A stretch of 64,000 nucleotides of DNA, taken from NCBI RefSeq assembly GCF_017874375.1, contig NZ_JAGGLK010000003.1:186001-250000 (forward strand). Reading direction: 5' to 3'. Every line of letters starts with the position of its first letter. Positions within the stretch are counted from its first letter, which is position 1. This DNA comes from Methanohalophilus levihalophilus (GTDB lineage: Archaea > Halobacteriota > Methanosarcinia > Methanosarcinales > Methanosarcinaceae). The position numbers and the translations under genes were made by a program. The notes beneath the pieces were generated by a model that was not told the origin of the DNA, ran no database searches, and saw only the letters and a list, made by a program, of their open reading frames with translations. Below, one piece after another: positions 22,072 through 63,507 of this stretch.

Positions 22072-22080
22072 TCTTCCATT

Positions 22081-22812
22081 ATGAAAGACCGGGAGATCTA
22101 TTCTGATTTGCGTTGCGCGCCTCCCATTATCATTCGCATTGACGGAAGGAACTTTAAGAATACTCTTAATGAACTCGGATGCGAGAAACCTTACGATAAG
22201 AGACTTGCTTCTTCAATGGCACATTCATTGGAGCTTCTTTTCACAAAGAGCGGGCTTAATCCCTCATTTGCGTACACTTTTTCAGACGAAGCGAGCATTG
22301 TTTTTGCCGATCTTCCGTTTAACGGCCGGGTTGAGAAACTGGATTCCATTATCCCCAGTTTTTTAAGCAGTGCTTTTACTCTTTTAATGGAACTTGACAT
22401 TCCGATATCCTTTGATTCAAGGATCGTATCTATACAACCGGATCAAATTTCATCCTATATGGAATGGAGGCAGGCTGAAGCCTGGCGGAATTGTGTTTTT
22501 TCATATGGTTTCTACACACTTGTTTCGGAAGGGATCACCGAAAAACAGGCCTTCCATGAATTATATGGGAAAAAGTCCAGCGACATTCACGAACTGCTAT
22601 TCCAGAGGGGAATTAATATTGCCAAGGTTTCCGCATGGCAAAGGCGTGGAATTGCTGTCCATCGGGAAGAATATCCTATAGAAGGCTTTGATCCTTCCAG
22701 GCAGGAACCTACTGTCTCTACACGTAGCCGCATTACGCAACAGTGGGAGCTCCCTCTCTTTAGTACTGAGGAAGGAGCGGATTATCTCAAAAGGTATATA
22801 ACGTTAGATTGA
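22081..22812 (+). CDS. thg1: tRNA(His) guanylyltransferase family protein (Thg1)
   Basis: A 243-residue Thg1-family 3'-5' polymerase that adds G-1 to tRNA-His or repairs tRNA 5' ends. The palm motif PIIIRIDGRNF at residues 16-26 and the second metal motif TFSDEASIVF near 66-75 are present, as is the RQAEAWRNCVFSY segment near 132-144. Length fits. In Methanosarcina acetivorans this gene is known to contain an in-frame amber codon read as pyrrolysine; here the frame has no internal TAG. Confidence 0.88.
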   Translation: MKDREIYSDLRCAPPIIIRIDGRNFKNTLNELGCEKPYDKRLASSMAHSLELLFTKSGLNPSFAYTFSDEASIVFADLPFNGRVEKLDSIIPSFLSSAFTLLMELDIPISFDSRIVSIQPDQISSYMEWRQAEAWRNCVFSYGFYTLVSEGITEKQAFHELYGKKSSDIHELLFQRGINIAKVSAWQRRGIAVHREEYPIEGFDPSRQEPTVSTRSRITQQWELPLFSTEEGADYLKRYITLD

Positions 22813-25102: not shown

Positions 25103-27112
25103 ATGGAAGCCATTCTTCTAAATGATTTAATAATAATTTTCGGATTGTCTATTGCAATCCTGTATATATCCCACAAGCTCAAGCTTTCAATAATTGTGGG
25201 CTTCCTGTTCACAGGTATCCTTGTAGGTCCCTACGGGATGGGTCTGATTGCCGCAGTAGAGGAAGTTGAACTTCTTGCGGAGATCGGTATTATCCTGCTT
25301 CTTTTCAGCATTGGTGTAGAGCTTTCCATCAAGGATTTATGGAAGCTCAAAAGAATGGTTTTCGTTGGAGGTTTTCTTCAGGTTTTCATTACCTGCGCAG
25401 TTACGTTTATTGCATCAGTATATCTGGGTTATTCGTACAACGAGGCCATTTTCCTCGGTTTCCTTATATCCCTTAGCAGTACTGCAATAGTACTGAAAAT
25501 AATGCAAAACCGTGCCGAATTGCATTCTCTCCACGGGAAAAACATCCTTTCAATTTTGCTCTTCCAGGACGTTATCGTGGTTGCGATGATTGTGGCCACC
25601 CCTATCCTTGCGGGCACCGGTGAATCAGGAATAGGTGCCATTCTTGAGATTGTAGCTATGGCACTTGGTATCATCGTGTTTGTTCTGGTTGCTGCCAGAT
25701 GGGTTGTCCCATACCTTCTTTTCCAGATCACCAAGACACGAAATCCTGAATTATTCCTGCTAAGTATCATTGTAATCTGTCTGGCTGTCGCATTGCTCAC
25801 TGCAAGTATCGGCTTATCCCTTGCTCTGGGTGCTTTCCTTGCGGGTCTGATTATTTCCGAATCTGAGTACAGTCACCAGGCTTTGGGGAACATCCTTCCG
25901 TTTCGTGATATTTTCCTGAGCTTTTTCTTTGTATCAGTGGGAATGCTGCTTGACATAAGCTTCTTCCTTGAGAGGCCACTTATGATGATCTCTCTGGCAG
26001 CACTTGTGATGCTGGGTAAATCGTTCATCTCCGGTTTTGTGTCATCAATGATGGGTTACCCGATGAGAACATCAGTTCTTACAGGTATTGCTCTTTCACA
26101 GGTAGGTGAATTCTCATTCGTCCTGTCAAAATTCGGTCTGGACGCCGGGATTCTTGATAGCCATACCTACCAGATTTTCCTTGATATATCCATTCTTACA
26201 ATGGCAGCAACATCAGTTGCAATTGCGATTTCCCCGCAGGTTGCGGACAATGTCGTAAAGTTGCCCATTCCAAAACGTCTTAAAAAGGGCATGCTATCGA
26301 ACAAATTGTCTTTCCTGCCGGACAGGAATGTCCAGCTAAACGGACACCTGATTATCGTGGGATTTGGGTTTAACGGACATACGGTTGCAAAGGCCGCAAA
26401 AGCTGCCGGAATTCCCTATGTTGTTATTGAAAGCAATCCGCAGAGTGTCAGGGATGGGCTCGAAGAAGGCCATCTTATATTCTATGGTGACGCTTCACAG
26501 GAATCAGTGCTTGAGCATGCCTCTATAAACACCGCAAAGGCTATGGTAATAGGTATTTCAGATGCGCCTGGTACAAGGAGAACAACCTGGATGGCACGCT
26601 CCATGAATCCGAATATCCATATTATTGCAAGAACCCGTTACCTGCAGGAAGTTGAGCCGCTTTACGAACTCGGTGCAAATGAGGTTATTCCGGAAGAGTT
26701 TGAAACATCCGTGGAAATATTCGTTAGACTCCTTCGTCGGTATCTTGTTCCGGAAGATCAGATTAAGCAATTCATAGCGGATGTCAGATCGGATAGTTAT
26801 GAAATGTTGCGCAGCATATCACCTGAGCATTTCTCACTGGCAGATATGCAATTTGATATCCCGGATGTGGACATCATTTCCCTGCGTGTTCCGCTGGAAT
26901 CGGAAGTTGTCGGTAAGACTTTGAAAGAACTGGACTTACGTCGCAATCTTGGAATTACCGTACTTGCCATAAGGCGGGGACTTAATGTTATGACAAGCCC
27001 TGATGGTGATGTAAAACTGCTGGAAGGGGATATCCTTGTACTTATGGGTAAACATGAAGAAATGGAACAATTAGGGGATCTTTTTGTAAATATAAACATA
27101 AATGATGGCTAA
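25103..27112 (+). CDS. CPA2-type cation/proton antiporter with TrkA domains (KefB-like)
   Basis: A 669-residue protein. Residues about 1-385 form a Na+/H+-exchanger domain with about twelve membrane segments (LLFSIGVELSIKDLWKLKR near 70, LALGAFLAGLIISESEY near 240). A TrkA/RCK N domain follows (HLIIVGFGFNGHTVAKAAK near 412-430, the NAD-binding GxGxxG site) and a TrkA-C domain at about 585-665. Such proteins export K+ or Na+ under nucleotide control. Its end overlaps the upstream-most possible start of the next gene. Confidence 0.9.
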   Translation: MEAILLNDLIIIFGLSIAILYISHKLKLSIIVGFLFTGILVGPYGMGLIAAVEEVELLAEIGIILLLFSIGVELSIKDLWKLKRMVFVGGFLQVFITCAVTFIASVYLGYSYNEAIFLGFLISLSSTAIVLKIMQNRAELHSLHGKNILSILLFQDVIVVAMIVATPILAGTGESGIGAILEIVAMALGIIVFVLVAARWVVPYLLFQITKTRNPELFLLSIIVICLAVALLTASIGLSLALGAFLAGLIISESEYSHQALGNILPFRDIFLSFFFVSVGMLLDISFFLERPLMMISLAALVMLGKSFISGFVSSMMGYPMRTSVLTGIALSQVGEFSFVLSKFGLDAGILDSHTYQIFLDISILTMAATSVAIAISPQVADNVVKLPIPKRLKKGMLSNKLSFLPDRNVQLNGHLIIVGFGFNGHTVAKAAKAAGIPYVVIESNPQSVRDGLEEGHLIFYGDASQESVLEHASINTAKAMVIGISDAPGTRRTTWMARSMNPNIHIIARTRYLQEVEPLYELGANEVIPEEFETSVEIFVRLLRRYLVPEDQIKQFIADVRSDSYEMLRSISPEHFSLADMQFDIPDVDIISLRVPLESEVVGKTLKELDLRRNLGITVLAIRRGLNVMTSPDGDVKLLEGDILVLMGKHEEMEQLGDLFVNININDG

Positions 27113-27125
27113 AGGGGTTTGGTCA

Positions 27126-28409
27126 ATGGAATCTTCGCTAAACGAAATAATCGAAAAACTGGATAGAAAAGAAGCCAAAGTATTAACATCGCAGCAGGTA
27201 TGCGAACTTGTTAAAAAGGGGAAAGAAATTGGTTTTGAAGATGTTGATGTGGTAACCACTGCAACCCGCGGTGTCATGAGTGGAACGTATGCGGTTCTTT
27301 CTTTTCCTGTGAAAGCCCCTGAAGAGTTTACAAGGGCTGTCGATGTTCATCTTAACGGGGTTCCCGCACATGTCGGTCCATGTCCAAACGAACGTCTCGG
27401 AATCCTTGATTTAATGGTTTTCGGCACATCCCACAGCCATGAAATTGAGAATTACGGCGGAGGTCATCTTTTCCGGGACATAGTAGCGGGAAAGGAGATC
27501 AAAGTCCATGTTCGTACTGATGAAGGGCATGAGTTCAGATCCACAGTTTCAATAAACGACATGCCTTTTGCACGCCTGTTTTCAACAAGGAACACATTCA
27601 AGAATTACAGTGCATTTACAAATCTGGCATCATATCCAGTATCAACTATTTTCCATGCCACTGAGTTCGGGCCGGATGCAACCGAAGCTACATTGTCTGG
27701 ATGCGGGGAAATAAGTCCGGTCAAAAACGATCCTCTACTTCATGGAATTGGTATTGGTACACGCATATTATTCAATGGTGCAGAAGGTTTTGTTCTTGGC
27801 AGCGGTACCCGCAGCAGTCCGCAGAAACCAAATCTCATTGCCATGGCGGATATGCATTCCATGGTTCCGGAATATATGGGCGGATTCATAACCTCAGCTG
27901 GTCCGGAATGTATTGCTTCATGGGCAGTTGCAATTCCCGTAGTTGATGATTCCGTTTTTGAAGCGATTACGCAAACCGATTCTAATACTCCAATGCCTGT
28001 GATGGATGCCGACAGACGAGTTCAGGTTGCCACTACAAGCTATGCAGATGCCTGGTCAGGCGTTGATCTGGAAGTTTCTTTCCATCCATCAAGATGTGTG
28101 GAATGTGAATCATGCAGGTCAAAAGAAGATTGTCCCACAGAAGCCATTTTCTTTGCCAAAAAAGGAGTCGGTCTGGACAGGAACCTGTGCTTTAACTGCG
28201 GGTTATGCTCTACAAACTGTCCGGAGAAAGTGTTTGAAGCAAATCTCGGCTCTGTTAAGTTTGAGTACGAGGACAAGTCAATGGACATTCCGATTGTGGT
28301 CCGGCAATCTGATAGAAAACGCGCCCTGAAAATGGCCGATGATCTAAAGAAGCAGATAGAAGAAGGCAATTTCAAGGTTAACGGGATGATTGAGCGGATA
28401 TATTCATAA
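27126..28409 (+). CDS. DUF39 metalloprotein with C-terminal 2x[4Fe-4S] domain, likely methanogenesis marker 16
   Basis: A 427-residue protein. Residues about 10-330 match the DUF39 fold of homocysteine-forming sulfurtransferases (GVMSGTYAVLSFPVKAPEEF near 44, LFNGAEGFVLGSGTRSSPQK near 220). The C-terminus carries a ferredoxin-like double cluster: CVECESCRSKEDCP near 328-341 and CFNCGLCSTNCP near 358-369. This arrangement fits the methanogen-specific marker 16 family; a related role in L-aspartate-semialdehyde sulfurtransfer is the alternative. The start at 27126 follows AAAGGGG; 27102 is an alternative that overlaps the antiporter. Confidence 0.72.
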   Translation: MESSLNEIIEKLDRKEAKVLTSQQVCELVKKGKEIGFEDVDVVTTATRGVMSGTYAVLSFPVKAPEEFTRAVDVHLNGVPAHVGPCPNERLGILDLMVFGTSHSHEIENYGGGHLFRDIVAGKEIKVHVRTDEGHEFRSTVSINDMPFARLFSTRNTFKNYSAFTNLASYPVSTIFHATEFGPDATEATLSGCGEISPVKNDPLLHGIGIGTRILFNGAEGFVLGSGTRSSPQKPNLIAMADMHSMVPEYMGGFITSAGPECIASWAVAIPVVDDSVFEAITQTDSNTPMPVMDADRRVQVATTSYADAWSGVDLEVSFHPSRCVECESCRSKEDCPTEAIFFAKKGVGLDRNLCFNCGLCSTNCPEKVFEANLGSVKFEYEDKSMDIPIVVRQSDRKRALKMADDLKKQIEEGNFKVNGMIERIYS

Positions 28410-28433
28410 CCAAATTTTTGCTACCGATTGGCA

Positions 28434-28446
28434 TCAATTTTTTTAT
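28434..28446 (+). terminator. T-rich terminator after the marker 16-like gene
   Basis: Two T runs (ATTTTTG at about 28413-28419 and ATTTTTTTA at 28438-28446) follow the stop codon on the plus strand and fill the gap before the converging lipoprotein gene. Confidence 0.5.
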
Positions 28447-28476
28447 GCCAGTTGGATTTTATTCTCCCTCAACAGG

Positions 28477-28926
28477 TCATCCGTGTACAACATTAATACG
28501 GTATTTTTGGACAACAGTACCTGATGATTGGAGGAAGCTTTTCTCAAACATGAAATCTTCCGTTTTACCGGGTTTTAATTTCTCTTTAATCCAGGGTTCC
28601 ACAGTGTTGTCTATAGCCAGGGGGTTTTCTCCGGTGCTGGTATGGAATGTAGTGTTTATTTCACAGTATACGGAGCCGGTATCACCTATATTTGAAACAT
28701 TCCCCTCGATTACGTATTTTGTATAAAATGTGCTGGGTTCACTTTTGACGCTGTAATAAAGAACCAGATTCGATTCATCGATAGTCAGTTTGTAAATATC
28801 AACGTTATTCAGGTCGTGAAGCCGGGATGAAGTTGTGCTTTTTTCAGCTGGTTCAGCACAACCTGCCATAAGTGGCAATGTCATAACCAGCAAAAATGCG
28901 AGAAACAAAGCACTGCTTTTCATCAT
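28477..28926 (-). CDS. lipoprotein, FxLYD-like
   Basis: A 149-residue secreted lipoprotein. The signal peptide runs to the lipobox LMAGC near residues 18-22. The mature part has an immunoglobulin-like beta pattern with KYVIEGNVSNIGDTGSVYCE near 69-88 and KLKPGKTEDFMFEKSF near 116-131, typical of FxLYD/DUF3426 small surface domains. Function unknown. An inverted repeat lies just upstream of the start. Confidence 0.72.
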   Translation of the reverse strand: MMKSSALFLAFLLVMTLPLMAGCAEPAEKSTTSSRLHDLNNVDIYKLTIDESNLVLYYSVKSEPSTFYTKYVIEGNVSNIGDTGSVYCEINTTFHTSTGENPLAIDNTVEPWIKEKLKPGKTEDFMFEKSFLQSSGTVVQKYRINVVHG

Positions 28927-28931
28927 TTAGA

Positions 28932-28948
28932 ATGTGTATATGACACAT
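28932..28948. promoter_or_regulatory. operator-like inverted repeat before the lipoprotein gene
   Basis: ATGTGT-ATATG-ACACAT is a perfect 6-bp inverted repeat with a 5-base centre. It lies 5-22 bases upstream of the lipoprotein start, between it and a TATA-like AGTTTATTATG on the minus strand, a position suited to a repressor. Confidence 0.4.
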
Positions 28949-28970
28949 AATAAACTTTTAGCCGGGAAAT

Positions 28971-29525
28971 TTAATCGCTGGAGATCTCCATGAATCTCTC
29001 AATGATTTCTTCAGGTGAAAGGGGTATTATTGGAACTTTTTCATTTCCCGGAGGCACTCTTACAAGAATTACTCCTGAATCGACTTTACTGAGAGTTTCT
29101 TTAAGTTCATCAGGATTTGAGATGTCGTAGACGCTTTCAATCCCTGCACCCTTTGCAACAGATGCGAGGTTTGTTTTGCCGGATGTGGCTGTCGGCTGGC
29201 TTCCGGTGGACCCGTAACTGCTGTTGTCAATTATTACAAGAATGTAATTTTCAGGGTGCTGGTTGGCAATCGTTGCGAGACTGCCCATGTTCATAAGGAC
29301 GGAACCATCTCCGTCAATTGCAATGACTCTTTTATCAGGTCTTGCAAGAGCAAGTCCCAGCCCGATGGATGATGCAAGTCCCATGGAACCAAGCATGTAG
29401 AAATTTTCTTTCCTGTCAAATATGAAATAGAGCTCCCTTGATGGAAAACCGATGTTTGCAACAAGAAGGGCATTCACATCTTCGGCCCGCTTTGCAATGA
29501 TTTCGATCGCTTCAATGCGTTTCAT
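28971..29525 (-). CDS. comE: sulfopyruvate decarboxylase beta subunit
   Basis: A 184-residue thiamine-diphosphate-binding subunit. The TPP motif is [18 protein letters not shown] at about residues 74-91, followed by [17 protein letters not shown]. With ComD it decarboxylates 3-sulfopyruvate to sulfoacetaldehyde in coenzyme M synthesis. Its ATG overlaps the comD stop (ATGA). Confidence 0.9.
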
Positions 29526-30019
29526 TGTTCGCTCCAGAAGCAGATTTCAAGCAGCACTGCTACAGGTGTCTTGTCTTCGTAAGCTGTTTTCATGGCGTTT
29601 GCAATCGTTTCCCTTGTTCCCTCAAGGCAGGGGTTAAAATACGGGATATCCATTGTCTCAAGCAGTGGAGGGGTTTTTATTCCCATAGGGACCTGTGCAC
29701 AGATTGGTTCTCCTTCAACTCCTCTGTGACTGATTATCATCAGAATTGGGATTTTGAAAAGACTGTTGAGTGATGCAAGTGCGTTAATTGAATTACCAAG
29801 GCCGGAATTTTGCATTAGCAGGGCAGGTTTTTTCCCTCCCATGTACGCTCCTGCGCAAATACCGATTCCTTCCTCTTCCCTTGTGACAGGAACATGGATT
29901 ATATCAGGATCAGCATCCACCATGGGAATAAGTTCCTGAAGGTTGATGCATGGTACACTGACCACAAAATCAATTCCCTCTTCCTTCATGGAGTTGAAAA
30001 CTTCAATGGTAGGATCCAT
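29522..30019 (-). CDS. comD: sulfopyruvate decarboxylase alpha subunit
   Basis: A 165-residue subunit with the pyrimidine-binding part of the TPP fold: [20 protein letters not shown] near residues 18-37, [20 protein letters not shown] near 48-67 with the catalytic-type Glu, and [15 protein letters not shown] near 70-84. It is 26 bases downstream of the cysteate synthase gene and forms one operon with it and comE. Confidence 0.9.
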
Positions 30020-30045
30020 TTTTCCCCGCGCGGTTAAGCTGGTAT

Positions 30046-31287
30046 TTACAGGATTTTTTCACTTGTAACATCAAGGATCTTTTGCACACTGTCATTCTTG
30101 TCTGGAGAGACAGTGATGTCAATATCAAGGGAAGTTATAGGCAATTCTTCCATTGCCCGCTTGACACCTCCCCCTGTGATATTTAGCATAACAAGTTCAT
30201 CTGGGTTGATTTTTCCTACATGCACAGCTTTAATCAAAGCAGCAACGGCAACTGATGATGCGTTAAGGACATCAATGCCTTCAAGTTCCTCAAACAGCTT
30301 TTTTGCTTCTTCAGCTTCTGCATTGCTGATACCGTATAGTTCACCATTTGTGTCGTCAAGTGCATCTTTTACGCCCCCTCCGACGGTGTATGGTGGTTTA
30401 CGGTTGAAAAGTACATCGTCCCACATCTGATCAGGACATGTTATGTCTATTGGTGTTCCGTCATGCAAGTTCAAAAGGGGTGCACAAGGAATATTCTGGG
30501 CAAGGTGAAGTTTTGGTAGGCGGTCACCGAAGCGTCCGTCTCCGATAAGTCTCATGGCAGCTTCCCACACTGCAATTCCACCGGTTCCGCTTCCCACTGC
30601 CTGGAAATAATGATCAGGAAGATGTTTCATTGTGAGGGTTGCGTCCAGCAGAACAGTTCCCATGCCATCCCTGCGAGCTACGTTTTTTGCACCGCCTTCA
30701 GCTACAAATCCGTCTTTTTCGGTAATCTGTGATGAAATCTCAATTGCATCGTAGTAATCCCCGTCTACAGCTGCAACAGATATGGATTCAGTAGATTCTG
30801 CAGGTATCCATAGTCTTTCTTTTGCGCTTTCCGGCACAACCAACAATAGCGGTGTATCTGTAAGGGAAGCCACGTGCGCAAATGCACGTGCAGTATTGCC
30901 TGCCGATGCCACTACCATTGTAGCATCGCTGTGTTGCTCTTTCAGGCGCTGCATTGTAGGATAGGACTCAAGATCTTTGAAACTGCAAGTCCTTATGAAA
31001 GCCTCTTTCTCGGGCCAGTAACCATTAAAACTGATGTAGAGCTTTTCAAGGCCAAGCTCCCGTGCAAGTTCTTCGCTGCGGTATGTAACTGTCCTGCCGC
31101 TTCCTTCCAAAATAGTACCATTTACCGGAAGCCAGTTGTAATATTTCCAGATTCCGGGAAGGTCGAGGGTTTTTAGCTGGCGGTCAGAATATTCAGTCCT
31201 TAGAAGTGCCCCGTCCGCAGGGCATGTCATATTGTATTTTCCGTAGACTTTTCCGCAAATAGGACATCTTAGGCTATACTTGTCCAT
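30046..31287 (-). CDS. cysteate synthase (threonine synthase paralogue)
   Basis: A 413-residue PLP fold-type II enzyme with an N-terminal zinc-ribbon-like start ([16 protein letters not shown] at residues 8-23). The PLP lysine is likely in [11 protein letters not shown] near 93-103 and the substrate/cofactor loop in [17 protein letters not shown] near 121-137. In Methanosarcina the equivalent enzyme converts phosphoserine and sulfite to cysteate. Location directly before comD and comE supports this over threonine synthase. A TATA box about 26 bases upstream suggests a leaderless message. Confidence 0.88.
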
Positions 31288-31306
31288 GGTCTGGAATCAA
31301 CAGGCT

Positions 31307-31320
31307 CATTTATATATTTG
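31307..31320 (-). promoter_or_regulatory. TATA box of the coenzyme M operon
   Basis: The minus strand reads CAAATATATAAATG, a strong TATA box centred about 26 bases before the cysteate synthase ATG at 31287. Transcription should begin at or within a few bases of the start codon, so translation is probably leaderless. Confidence 0.6.
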
Positions 31321-31351
31321 TTGCATAAGCCAATTGGAATACCCATTAAGG

Positions 31352-31397
31352 CAAAAAAAGGATAATTTTGAGGCTATATGTGGGTTGTAATAGCCTC
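31352..31397 (-). terminator. hairpin terminator after the cytochrome b5-like gene
   Basis: On the minus strand GAGGCTAT and ATAGCCTC form a perfect 8-bp stem with a 12-base loop (31370-31397), followed after 11 bases by a run of seven T (31352-31358). It closes the two-gene unit 31872-31412 and separates it from the coenzyme M operon. Confidence 0.65.
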
Positions 31398-31411
31398 TCT
31401 GTCATACAATT

Positions 31412-31642
31412 TTACTCTACGAGGGTACCCACTACTTCATAGTCATCAAAGACATCGTCTTCATGAGGGGAATCTTCCATTTCTTCAGTGAGATCCATTC
31501 CTGCTTCATGGAGTCCCTGATGCTCCCCATCCATCCAGAGATCGCTGTTGGTCACATCGTAGACCTTGCCGTTGTAGGCAATATAGATTTTTTCGTTGTC
31601 TACACCATTGTATTTTGCAAGCTATTCAATTGTAAATTCCAT
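31412..31642 (-). CDS. cytochrome b5-like heme-binding domain protein with in-frame TAG (candidate pyrrolysine)
   Basis: Read through one TAG, this frame encodes a 76-residue cytochrome b5-like domain: MEFTIE-TAG-LAKYNG at the start, YIAYNGKVYDVTNSDLW near residues 20-36, GEHQGLHEAGMDLTEE near 39-54 and YEVVGTLVE at the end. The two His in the middle fit the heme/ligand region of this small archaeal family. The TAG is codon 7 (plus-strand 31622-31624), where relatives usually have Glu or Ala ahead of L(A/S)KY. No in-frame start downstream would save the domain. An AGAGAGCAGGG ribosome region precedes the ATG, the gene ends with TAA and a hairpin terminator follows, so all else is intact. Nonsense mutation is the alternative. 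Confidence 0.75.
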
Positions 31643-31665
31643 AAAGTTCCCTGCTCTCTTGTATT

Positions 31666-31872
31666 TTAATCTTCAACTTCCATTGCATTAATTATGTCAT
31701 TAACTGTCAGTTCCCCTTTGACAGCTCTCTGTATCATGGGGTAGATATACGAAGAGTCATCAATGGCGCTCCAGCGTTCTTCTCCTACTCTCTTGATAAT
31801 CTCTTTCAGTATTTTGTCACATTCATCACAGTATTCGTTTTCATTTTCTTCTCCACAAACGGTACACTGCAT
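31666..31872 (-). CDS. small zinc-ribbon-like protein
   Basis: A 68-residue protein starting MQCTVCGEENENEYCDECDK: a C-x2-C ... C-x2-C knuckle at residues 3-18 followed by a helical region (ILKEIIKRVGEERW) and an acidic end. Likely a zinc-binding small protein. A strong GGAGGG ribosome site (31879-31884) supports the start. It lies 23 bases upstream of the cytochrome b5-like gene and shares its transcript. Confidence 0.7.
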   Translation of the reverse strand: MQCTVCGEENENEYCDECDKILKEIIKRVGEERWSAIDDSSYIYPMIQRAVKGELTVNDIINAMEVED

Positions 31873-62355: not shown

Positions 62356-63507
62356 ATGTACGATGTAATTGTGGTCGGTGCGGGGCCAGCAGGTGCAACG
62401 GCAGCACGGAAAACAGCAAAAGCAGGACTTAAGACACTGCTTCTTGAGAAGAGCAGACTTCCAAGGGTAAAAGTATGTGGCGGAGGGGTATCCATGCAAA
62501 CAGTTTCAAATCTTGGAATCTGTATACCCGAGTCATTGATTGAGAGGAAATGTTTTGGTGCCAGAGTGAGATACAAGAATATGTGTCTCGAGTCTGAGGC
62601 AAATGAGTGTCTTGCCCTGATGGTCTCAAGGGAAAAATTCGATAGTTATCTCACCATGTGTGCCGTAGAATAGGGTGCAGAACTCATGGAAAACGCCCAT
62701 GTCAGATCAGTGGACGTCCAAAAAGGTTATGCTGTGGTAGAGACTGCAGAAGGTTCATTCAAGTCCAACGTTGTGATAGGTGCAGACGGTGTGCATAGTT
62801 CATGTGCCAAAAATGTCAGGCAGAATTTTAGTAAGGAACAACTTGCGTTTTTGCTTGAGGCTGAGATCCATGCTTCAAATGAGTTTGTTGACGACTACAT
62901 CTCAAACAAGTGTGAATTCCATTTTGGTGATGTCAAGAATGGATATGGATGGGTATTTCCAAAAGAAGAACATCTTTCGGTCGGTATTGGTGGAATAAGT
63001 TCCAGTGTATCGGACCCGATGGGCATCTTTTACAATTTTGTCGACAAACTCGGTTTTGATCACGTGAAGCCCAGAGGACATTTCCTGCCAATAGGAGGTG
63101 CTAAGAGGAGAACGTGTGCCGACCGTATAATGCTTGCAGGTGACGCTGCCGGTTATGTTGATTCTTTCCTAGGTGAGGGTATAGCCTATGCCATAAAATC
63201 AGGAAACTTTGCGGCGGAGACTGCAATCGAGGCGCATCAGAATAAGGATTTCTCGCAAAAGTTCCTCTCATCCTATCAGGGGAAATGCGACGATGACTTT
63301 GGAAGCAACCTGAAATACTCATTGATATTCTCTAGGTTATTTCATCGATATGATAATTTTTCTGCCCGGATACTGACAACTAACGAGTCCGTGCTGAACA
63401 AGTTCCTATATATTTCCACCGGAAGATTTGGGTATTTGTCATTCATGATGTGGGTGGCTCCTCGCCTTCCATACTATGCCTTAAAAGCACTTTTTTGGAG
63501 ACCTTGA
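62356..63507 (+). CDS. geranylgeranyl-reductase-family flavoprotein with in-frame TAG (candidate pyrrolysine)
   Basis: One frame from ATG 62356 to TGA 63505-63507 encodes 383 residues if a TAG at 62671-62673 (codon 106) is read through. The FAD motif VVGAGPAGATAARKTAKAG is at residues 5-23, KVCGGGVS near 38, VVIGADGVHSSCAKNV near 137 and MLAGDAAGYVDSFLGEGIAY near 258, all of the GGR/FixC family. The TAG sits in a variable surface-like turn (MCAVE-TAG-GAELMEN). Without readthrough the product loses the second half of the fold. The next ATG at 62686 has no ribosome site. TGAGGA precedes the true start. The family saturates archaeal lipids or electron carriers. Confidence 0.8.

Follow-up and report, generated by a model that had tools for sequence, protein, structure and literature searches.

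Methanohalophilus levihalophilus carries a short cytochrome b5-like gene whose reading frame is interrupted, at its seventh codon, by a TAG, which raises the question of whether this is a gene on its way out or a live gene in which TAG is read as pyrrolysine (Pyl). We analysed the gene within a window of 64,000 nucleotides of the source genome (G000:C3:186001-250000), to which all unprefixed coordinates refer, together with the Pyl machinery and the use of TAG in the same genome.

The cytochrome b5-like gene and its relatives

The ORF lies on the reverse strand (31642-31412) and comprises 76 codons, one of which is the in-frame TAG; it reads MEFTIE-TAG-LAKYNGVDNEKIYIAYNGKVYDVTNSDLWMDGEHQGLHEAGMDLTEEMEDSPHEDDVFDDYEVVGTLVE-TAA, that is, six codons starting with ATG, the TAG, 69 further codons and the TAA stop (31412..31414). 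The TAG occupies 31624-31622, exactly as the preliminary description of this locus had it. A Pfam match to PF00173 (Cyt-b5) extends over residues 4-74 (E=1.7e-9) and includes the TAG. The earliest in-frame start-like codons past the TAG, a GTG at codon 30 and an ATG at codon 37, fall well within this domain, so that an internal start cannot rescue it and a restart past the TAG was ruled out.

The preliminary description also considered the expression signals intact, which agrees only in part with our results. Domain and TAA stop are as described, and a hairpin does exist 3' of the gene (31397-31370, reverse strand), with a perfect stem of 8 bp (GAGGCTAT/ATAGCCTC). It is best called terminator-like, with an unremarkable folding energy (z -0.8) and a run of seven T (31359-31353) that begins 10 nt past the stem. 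The ribosome-binding region on the same strand, GAGAGCAGGGAACTTT immediately before the ATG (31643..31658), is weak in comparison with the GGGGAGTGAG of congeners. The region 3' of the TAG holds no strong structure (z -1.7 versus shuffles), and the stable conserved hairpin directly after the TAG that defines a PYLIS element was not found there.

Among 120 related genomes, 52 contain the cytochrome b5-like gene, and a TAG within it occurs only in the source genome. Relatives have Glu (GAA) at codon 7, as had been anticipated and as seen in the Methanococcoides burtonii copy (L013), or else Gln (CAA, in the Methanococcoides-group L004 and L005) or Gly (GGC or GGT, in congeners); Ala, the other residue that had been proposed, is absent from this position among the 29 closest homologues. 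Coding sequence is conserved on both sides of the TAG, over the six codons before it and the 69 after it: the N-terminal MEFTIE fits the M-x-EFT-x-E of relatives, and the copy retains 24/24 columns with a conservation of 93% or more across the 29 homologues. We found no second lesion, and the claim that the TAG is the sole defect thus stands. In relative-rate pairings, 4-9 residues were unique to this copy versus 8-14 unique to congeners, and the count was lower for this copy in almost every pairing; in the tree, its branch is shorter than that of the congener clade (0.14 versus 0.34). Likewise, its identity with the orthologue in the congener G007 (67%) is in the range of the flanking genes (65-72%). 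Nothing in the sequence indicates decay, and if function was lost at all, the loss must be very recent.

Even so, the genus can dispense with the gene: another Methanohalophilus genome, G002, is without it. In a third one, G005, the copy is frameshifted (L063; G005:C2:1376662-1378237), but the neighbouring cysteate synthase is frameshifted too, so that assembly errors are likelier and we set aside a decay of the gene across the genus.

The gene is embedded in a conserved neighbourhood, all of it on the reverse strand. Just upstream is a putative zinc-ribbon protein of 68 aa (31666..31872), syntenic with and 72% identical to its G007 counterpart (L103:9363-9569), and downstream follow genes for cysteate synthase (30046..31287; TIGR03844; coenzyme M biosynthesis) and for the sulfopyruvate decarboxylase subunits alpha, comD (29522..30019; TIGR03845), and beta, comE (28971..29525; TIGR03846). 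This order, from zinc ribbon to comE, is common to the source genome and G007. Over 27102-31872, the cytochrome b5 and zinc-ribbon genes adjoin cysteate synthase, comDE and methanogenesis marker 16.

The closest solved structures are 6VZ6, from M. burtonii (E=4e-31), and 6NZX, from Hadesarchaea. An AlphaFold model with Lys in place of Pyl reached a mean pLDDT of 94.4, placed residue 7 in the first helix (5-9), and superimposed on 6VZ6 with a TM of 0.96 and an rmsd of 0.7, and on 6NZX with a TM of 0.94; the match to classical b5 proteins (1cyo, 3mus and others) was clearly worse (TM 0.6-0.7, rmsd 3.1-3.8). The M. burtonii protein (WP_011499504.1) belongs to the same family with 67% identity and has Glu (GAA) where the source genome has TAG, whereas the Hadesarchaea protein, of the same fold, is 48% identical and comes from a distant host with no known Pyl. 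The invariant residues Y20, Y28, H41 and H60 are kept, as are the invariant Trp and Gly columns. Sequence and modelled fold thus place the predicted protein in the archaeal b5 group of 6VZ6 and 6NZX and probably not among the classical b5 proteins; this group is reported to be akin to the MAPR proteins of eukaryotes and to hold its heme in a rotated orientation. Because of this homology, the protein would be expected to bind heme.

Pyrrolysine machinery in the host

The preliminary description had made its proposal conditional on the presence of pyl genes, and all of them, pylT, pylS, pylB, pylC and pylD, were found in a single cluster (G000:C2:319369-323692), followed by mtbA. The product of pylT was identified with ARAGORN as a tRNA-Pyl with a CUA anticodon. 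The genome also contains two mtmB genes and one mttB gene, each with its canonical TAG, and a single aRF1 above the family cut-off. With the complete pyl set and methylamine methyltransferases carrying in-frame TAG, the organism has the features of a Pyl-encoding one, and the proposal that its host could decode UAG as Pyl is supported. In M. portucalensis, from the same genus, mass spectrometry has revealed Pyl in MttB (PMC4928046).

In Pyl-using archaea, UAG serves both as sense and as stop, and the PYLIS element is not essential for its read-through (PMC2933860). Neutral acquisition of Pyl outside methyltransferases has a precedent: the gene for Thg1, the tRNA-His guanylyltransferase, of Methanosarcina acetivorans gained a TAG that is translated as Pyl, which is dispensable for activity (Heinemann et al. 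2009, described in PMC2933860). Like the cytochrome b5 gene, Thg1 encodes no methyltransferase and has an in-frame TAG confined to one lineage; in both, Pyl would be readable there without being required for activity. Thg1 differs in that Pyl was physically observed in it, whereas the heme protein is known from its sequence alone. The window contains its own Thg1 gene (at about 22072-22812), without in-frame TAG. The methyltransferases MtmB, MtbB and MttB share with the cytochrome b5 case the codon and the decoding machinery present in the genome, but in them Pyl is conserved and catalytic, whereas here the TAG is found in one genome and at a variable position.

As a separate observation, pylB stops with a TAG just before, or overlapping, the start of pylC in 12/15 pyl loci from several genera (L062:7244-8299, L110-L123), even though few genes otherwise stop at TAG. 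The terminal TAG of pylB is already known (PMC2933860); kept beside the pylC start, it might allow the level of Pyl to act on pylC translation.

TAG usage across the genome

We surveyed the use of TAG in a sample of 476 kb, 22% of the source genome. The 373 ORFs of at least 150 aa in this sample stop at TAA (183), TGA (181) or TAG (9), while base composition predicts a TAG share of ca. 31%. Of the nine ORFs that stop at TAG, most are either spurious or read-through genes; about three have TAG as a convincing terminator (pylB, L077:14675 and L080:6763), and TAG ends about 1% of genes.

The cytochrome b5 gene is not an isolated case. In the same sample, an in-frame TAG is crossed by Pfam domains or by close homologues in seven genes besides cytochrome b5, and the Pfam matches that cross a TAG, in seven ORFs, are Cyt-b5, FAD_binding_3, TSP3, FemAB/Acetyltransf_6, Methyltransf_25, TPD and MTTB. 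One of these genes is also in the window, on the forward strand (62356..63507), and encodes a flavoprotein resembling geranylgeranyl reductases, whose codon 106 (62671-62673), in the FAD domain, is TAG; homologues from other genera, 51-61% identical, are uninterrupted and show Ala, Ala, Met and Ser at this position. Another is an endonuclease III-like DNA glycosylase (L080:977-1639, G000:C3:60977-61639, minus strand) whose codon 24 is TAG, at a position occupied by Lys, Ile or Thr in congeners and other relatives (Lys in the G002 homologue); this protein has matches in 30/30 genomes searched. The remainder include a FemAB-like protein (L071:16632-17768), a SAM methyltransferase (L071:18903-19565), a protein with a TPD motif (L080:190-999) and one with TSP3 repeats (L067:777-1973), all of them spanned by Pfam matches. 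Three other candidates (2404 in the window, L072:15616 and L067:14236) were dropped, having either a normal start past the TAG or a non-coding upstream part.

Coding scores, scanned on their own, left read-through and ordinary gene junctions indistinguishable, and we therefore used the spanning of the junction by a Pfam match, with TAA and TGA junctions that are coding-like on both sides as a control (n=43, 40 of them scanned as read-through). None of the 40 scanned control junctions was spanned by a Pfam match, as against 5/9 TAG junctions under the same filter (hypergeometric probability ca. 7e-5), or 6/9 when including the endonuclease, which was judged by its homologues. That the codon found to interrupt domains is TAG, and neither TAA nor TGA, fits Pyl decoding, and would not be predicted by random nonsense mutation or by sequencing error. 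In tblastn comparisons of sampled stretches between the source genome and G007, only the cytochrome b5 case was retrieved, the rest being wrong-strand noise.

A transporter of the MFS type in G007 (L097:11155-12252) has an in-frame TAG at codon 274, inside its Pfam match. Because of this second genome with a TAG inside a domain, TAG is probably used as sense across Methanohalophilus. Kivenson and colleagues are reported to have described, in Science in 2025, an archaeal code in which all TAG codons are Pyl, with few TAG stops and many unreported Pyl proteins; the pattern in our source genome would match such a code.

Probable Pyl decoding at a permissive residue

The reading that we consider probable is that of a live archaeal b5-type gene, whose lineage-only TAG would be read as Pyl by ordinary, context-free decoding at a permissive residue. 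Codon 7 would have changed to TAG in the lineage of the source genome only; either GAG (Glu) or CAG (Gln) is one base change away. PylBCD would make Pyl and PylS would charge tRNA-Pyl(CUA) with it, and the charged tRNA would compete with the release factor at UAG with no dedicated signal, so that the full-length product would bear Pyl in its first helix and some abortive peptide of six residues would also arise. Because this helix is short and the site within it variable, Pyl would be tolerated and not needed, as expected of neutral drift under a code where TAG is mostly sense; nothing supports a function for Pyl in this protein. Expression may be low, because an introduced, context-free UAG in a reporter was read through to full length at only 20-30% in M. 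acetivorans (PMC2933860).

Besides this limited read-through and the lack of strong structure past the TAG, the points that count against Pyl decoding are the restriction of the TAG to one of 52 genomes, the weaker ribosome-binding site and the lack of the gene in G002, the probable closest relative as judged by one gene (the endonuclease III-like one, 79% identity). The last three points would also favour the view that a dispensable gene on its way out has very recently acquired a nonsense mutation, with incidental Pyl read-through of no benefit. We nonetheless regard this as unlikely, since a copy with no second lesion, every near-invariant column in place and a slower rate than its congeners does not look like a dying gene, random nonsense mutation would not predict domain interruptions that are TAG and not TAA or TGA, and the codon would be readable anyway with a working pyl system. 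It is very improbable that the TAG is a sequencing or assembly error of one base that hides a true GAG or CAG: it does lie one base from codons for Glu and Gln, the residues of many relatives, but TAGs also occur inside other conserved genes of this assembly where TAA and TGA do not, and errors would need a bias towards TAG. We also find it hard to believe that the TAG is regulatory, allowing full-length heme protein only when Pyl is plentiful, as in growth on methylamines, and so tying the protein to methylamine status. So close to the start, a TAG could act as a clean switch, and the neighbouring genes make coenzyme M, the methyl acceptor; however, a TAG at this site is conserved in no relative, and the other TAG genes, of which there are many, look unrelated and carry it at variable residues.

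Permissive, context-free Pyl decoding can be extended further. TAG would then be essentially a sense codon in this Methanohalophilus, with tens of Pyl proteins that are not methyltransferases, including a heme protein encoded next to coenzyme M genes; the amount of this protein would track the Pyl supply and so link heme or redox function to the use of methylamines. We consider this broader proposal decidedly improbable.

The cytochrome b5-like gene is a further candidate case of a known mechanism, and not a new one. The few candidate Pyl proteins other than methylamine methyltransferases are joined here by a heme protein, a flavoprotein, a DNA-repair glycosylase and further proteins, and such TAG-bearing genes are truncated or lost by standard gene calls. 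Being short, well folded and structurally known, the cytochrome b5-like protein could permit a direct measure of Pyl tolerance. More interesting than the cytochrome b5 case itself is that one genome holds several TAG genes with products other than methyltransferases, which is relevant to the question of whether these archaea recode TAG as a rare event or treat it as another sense codon.
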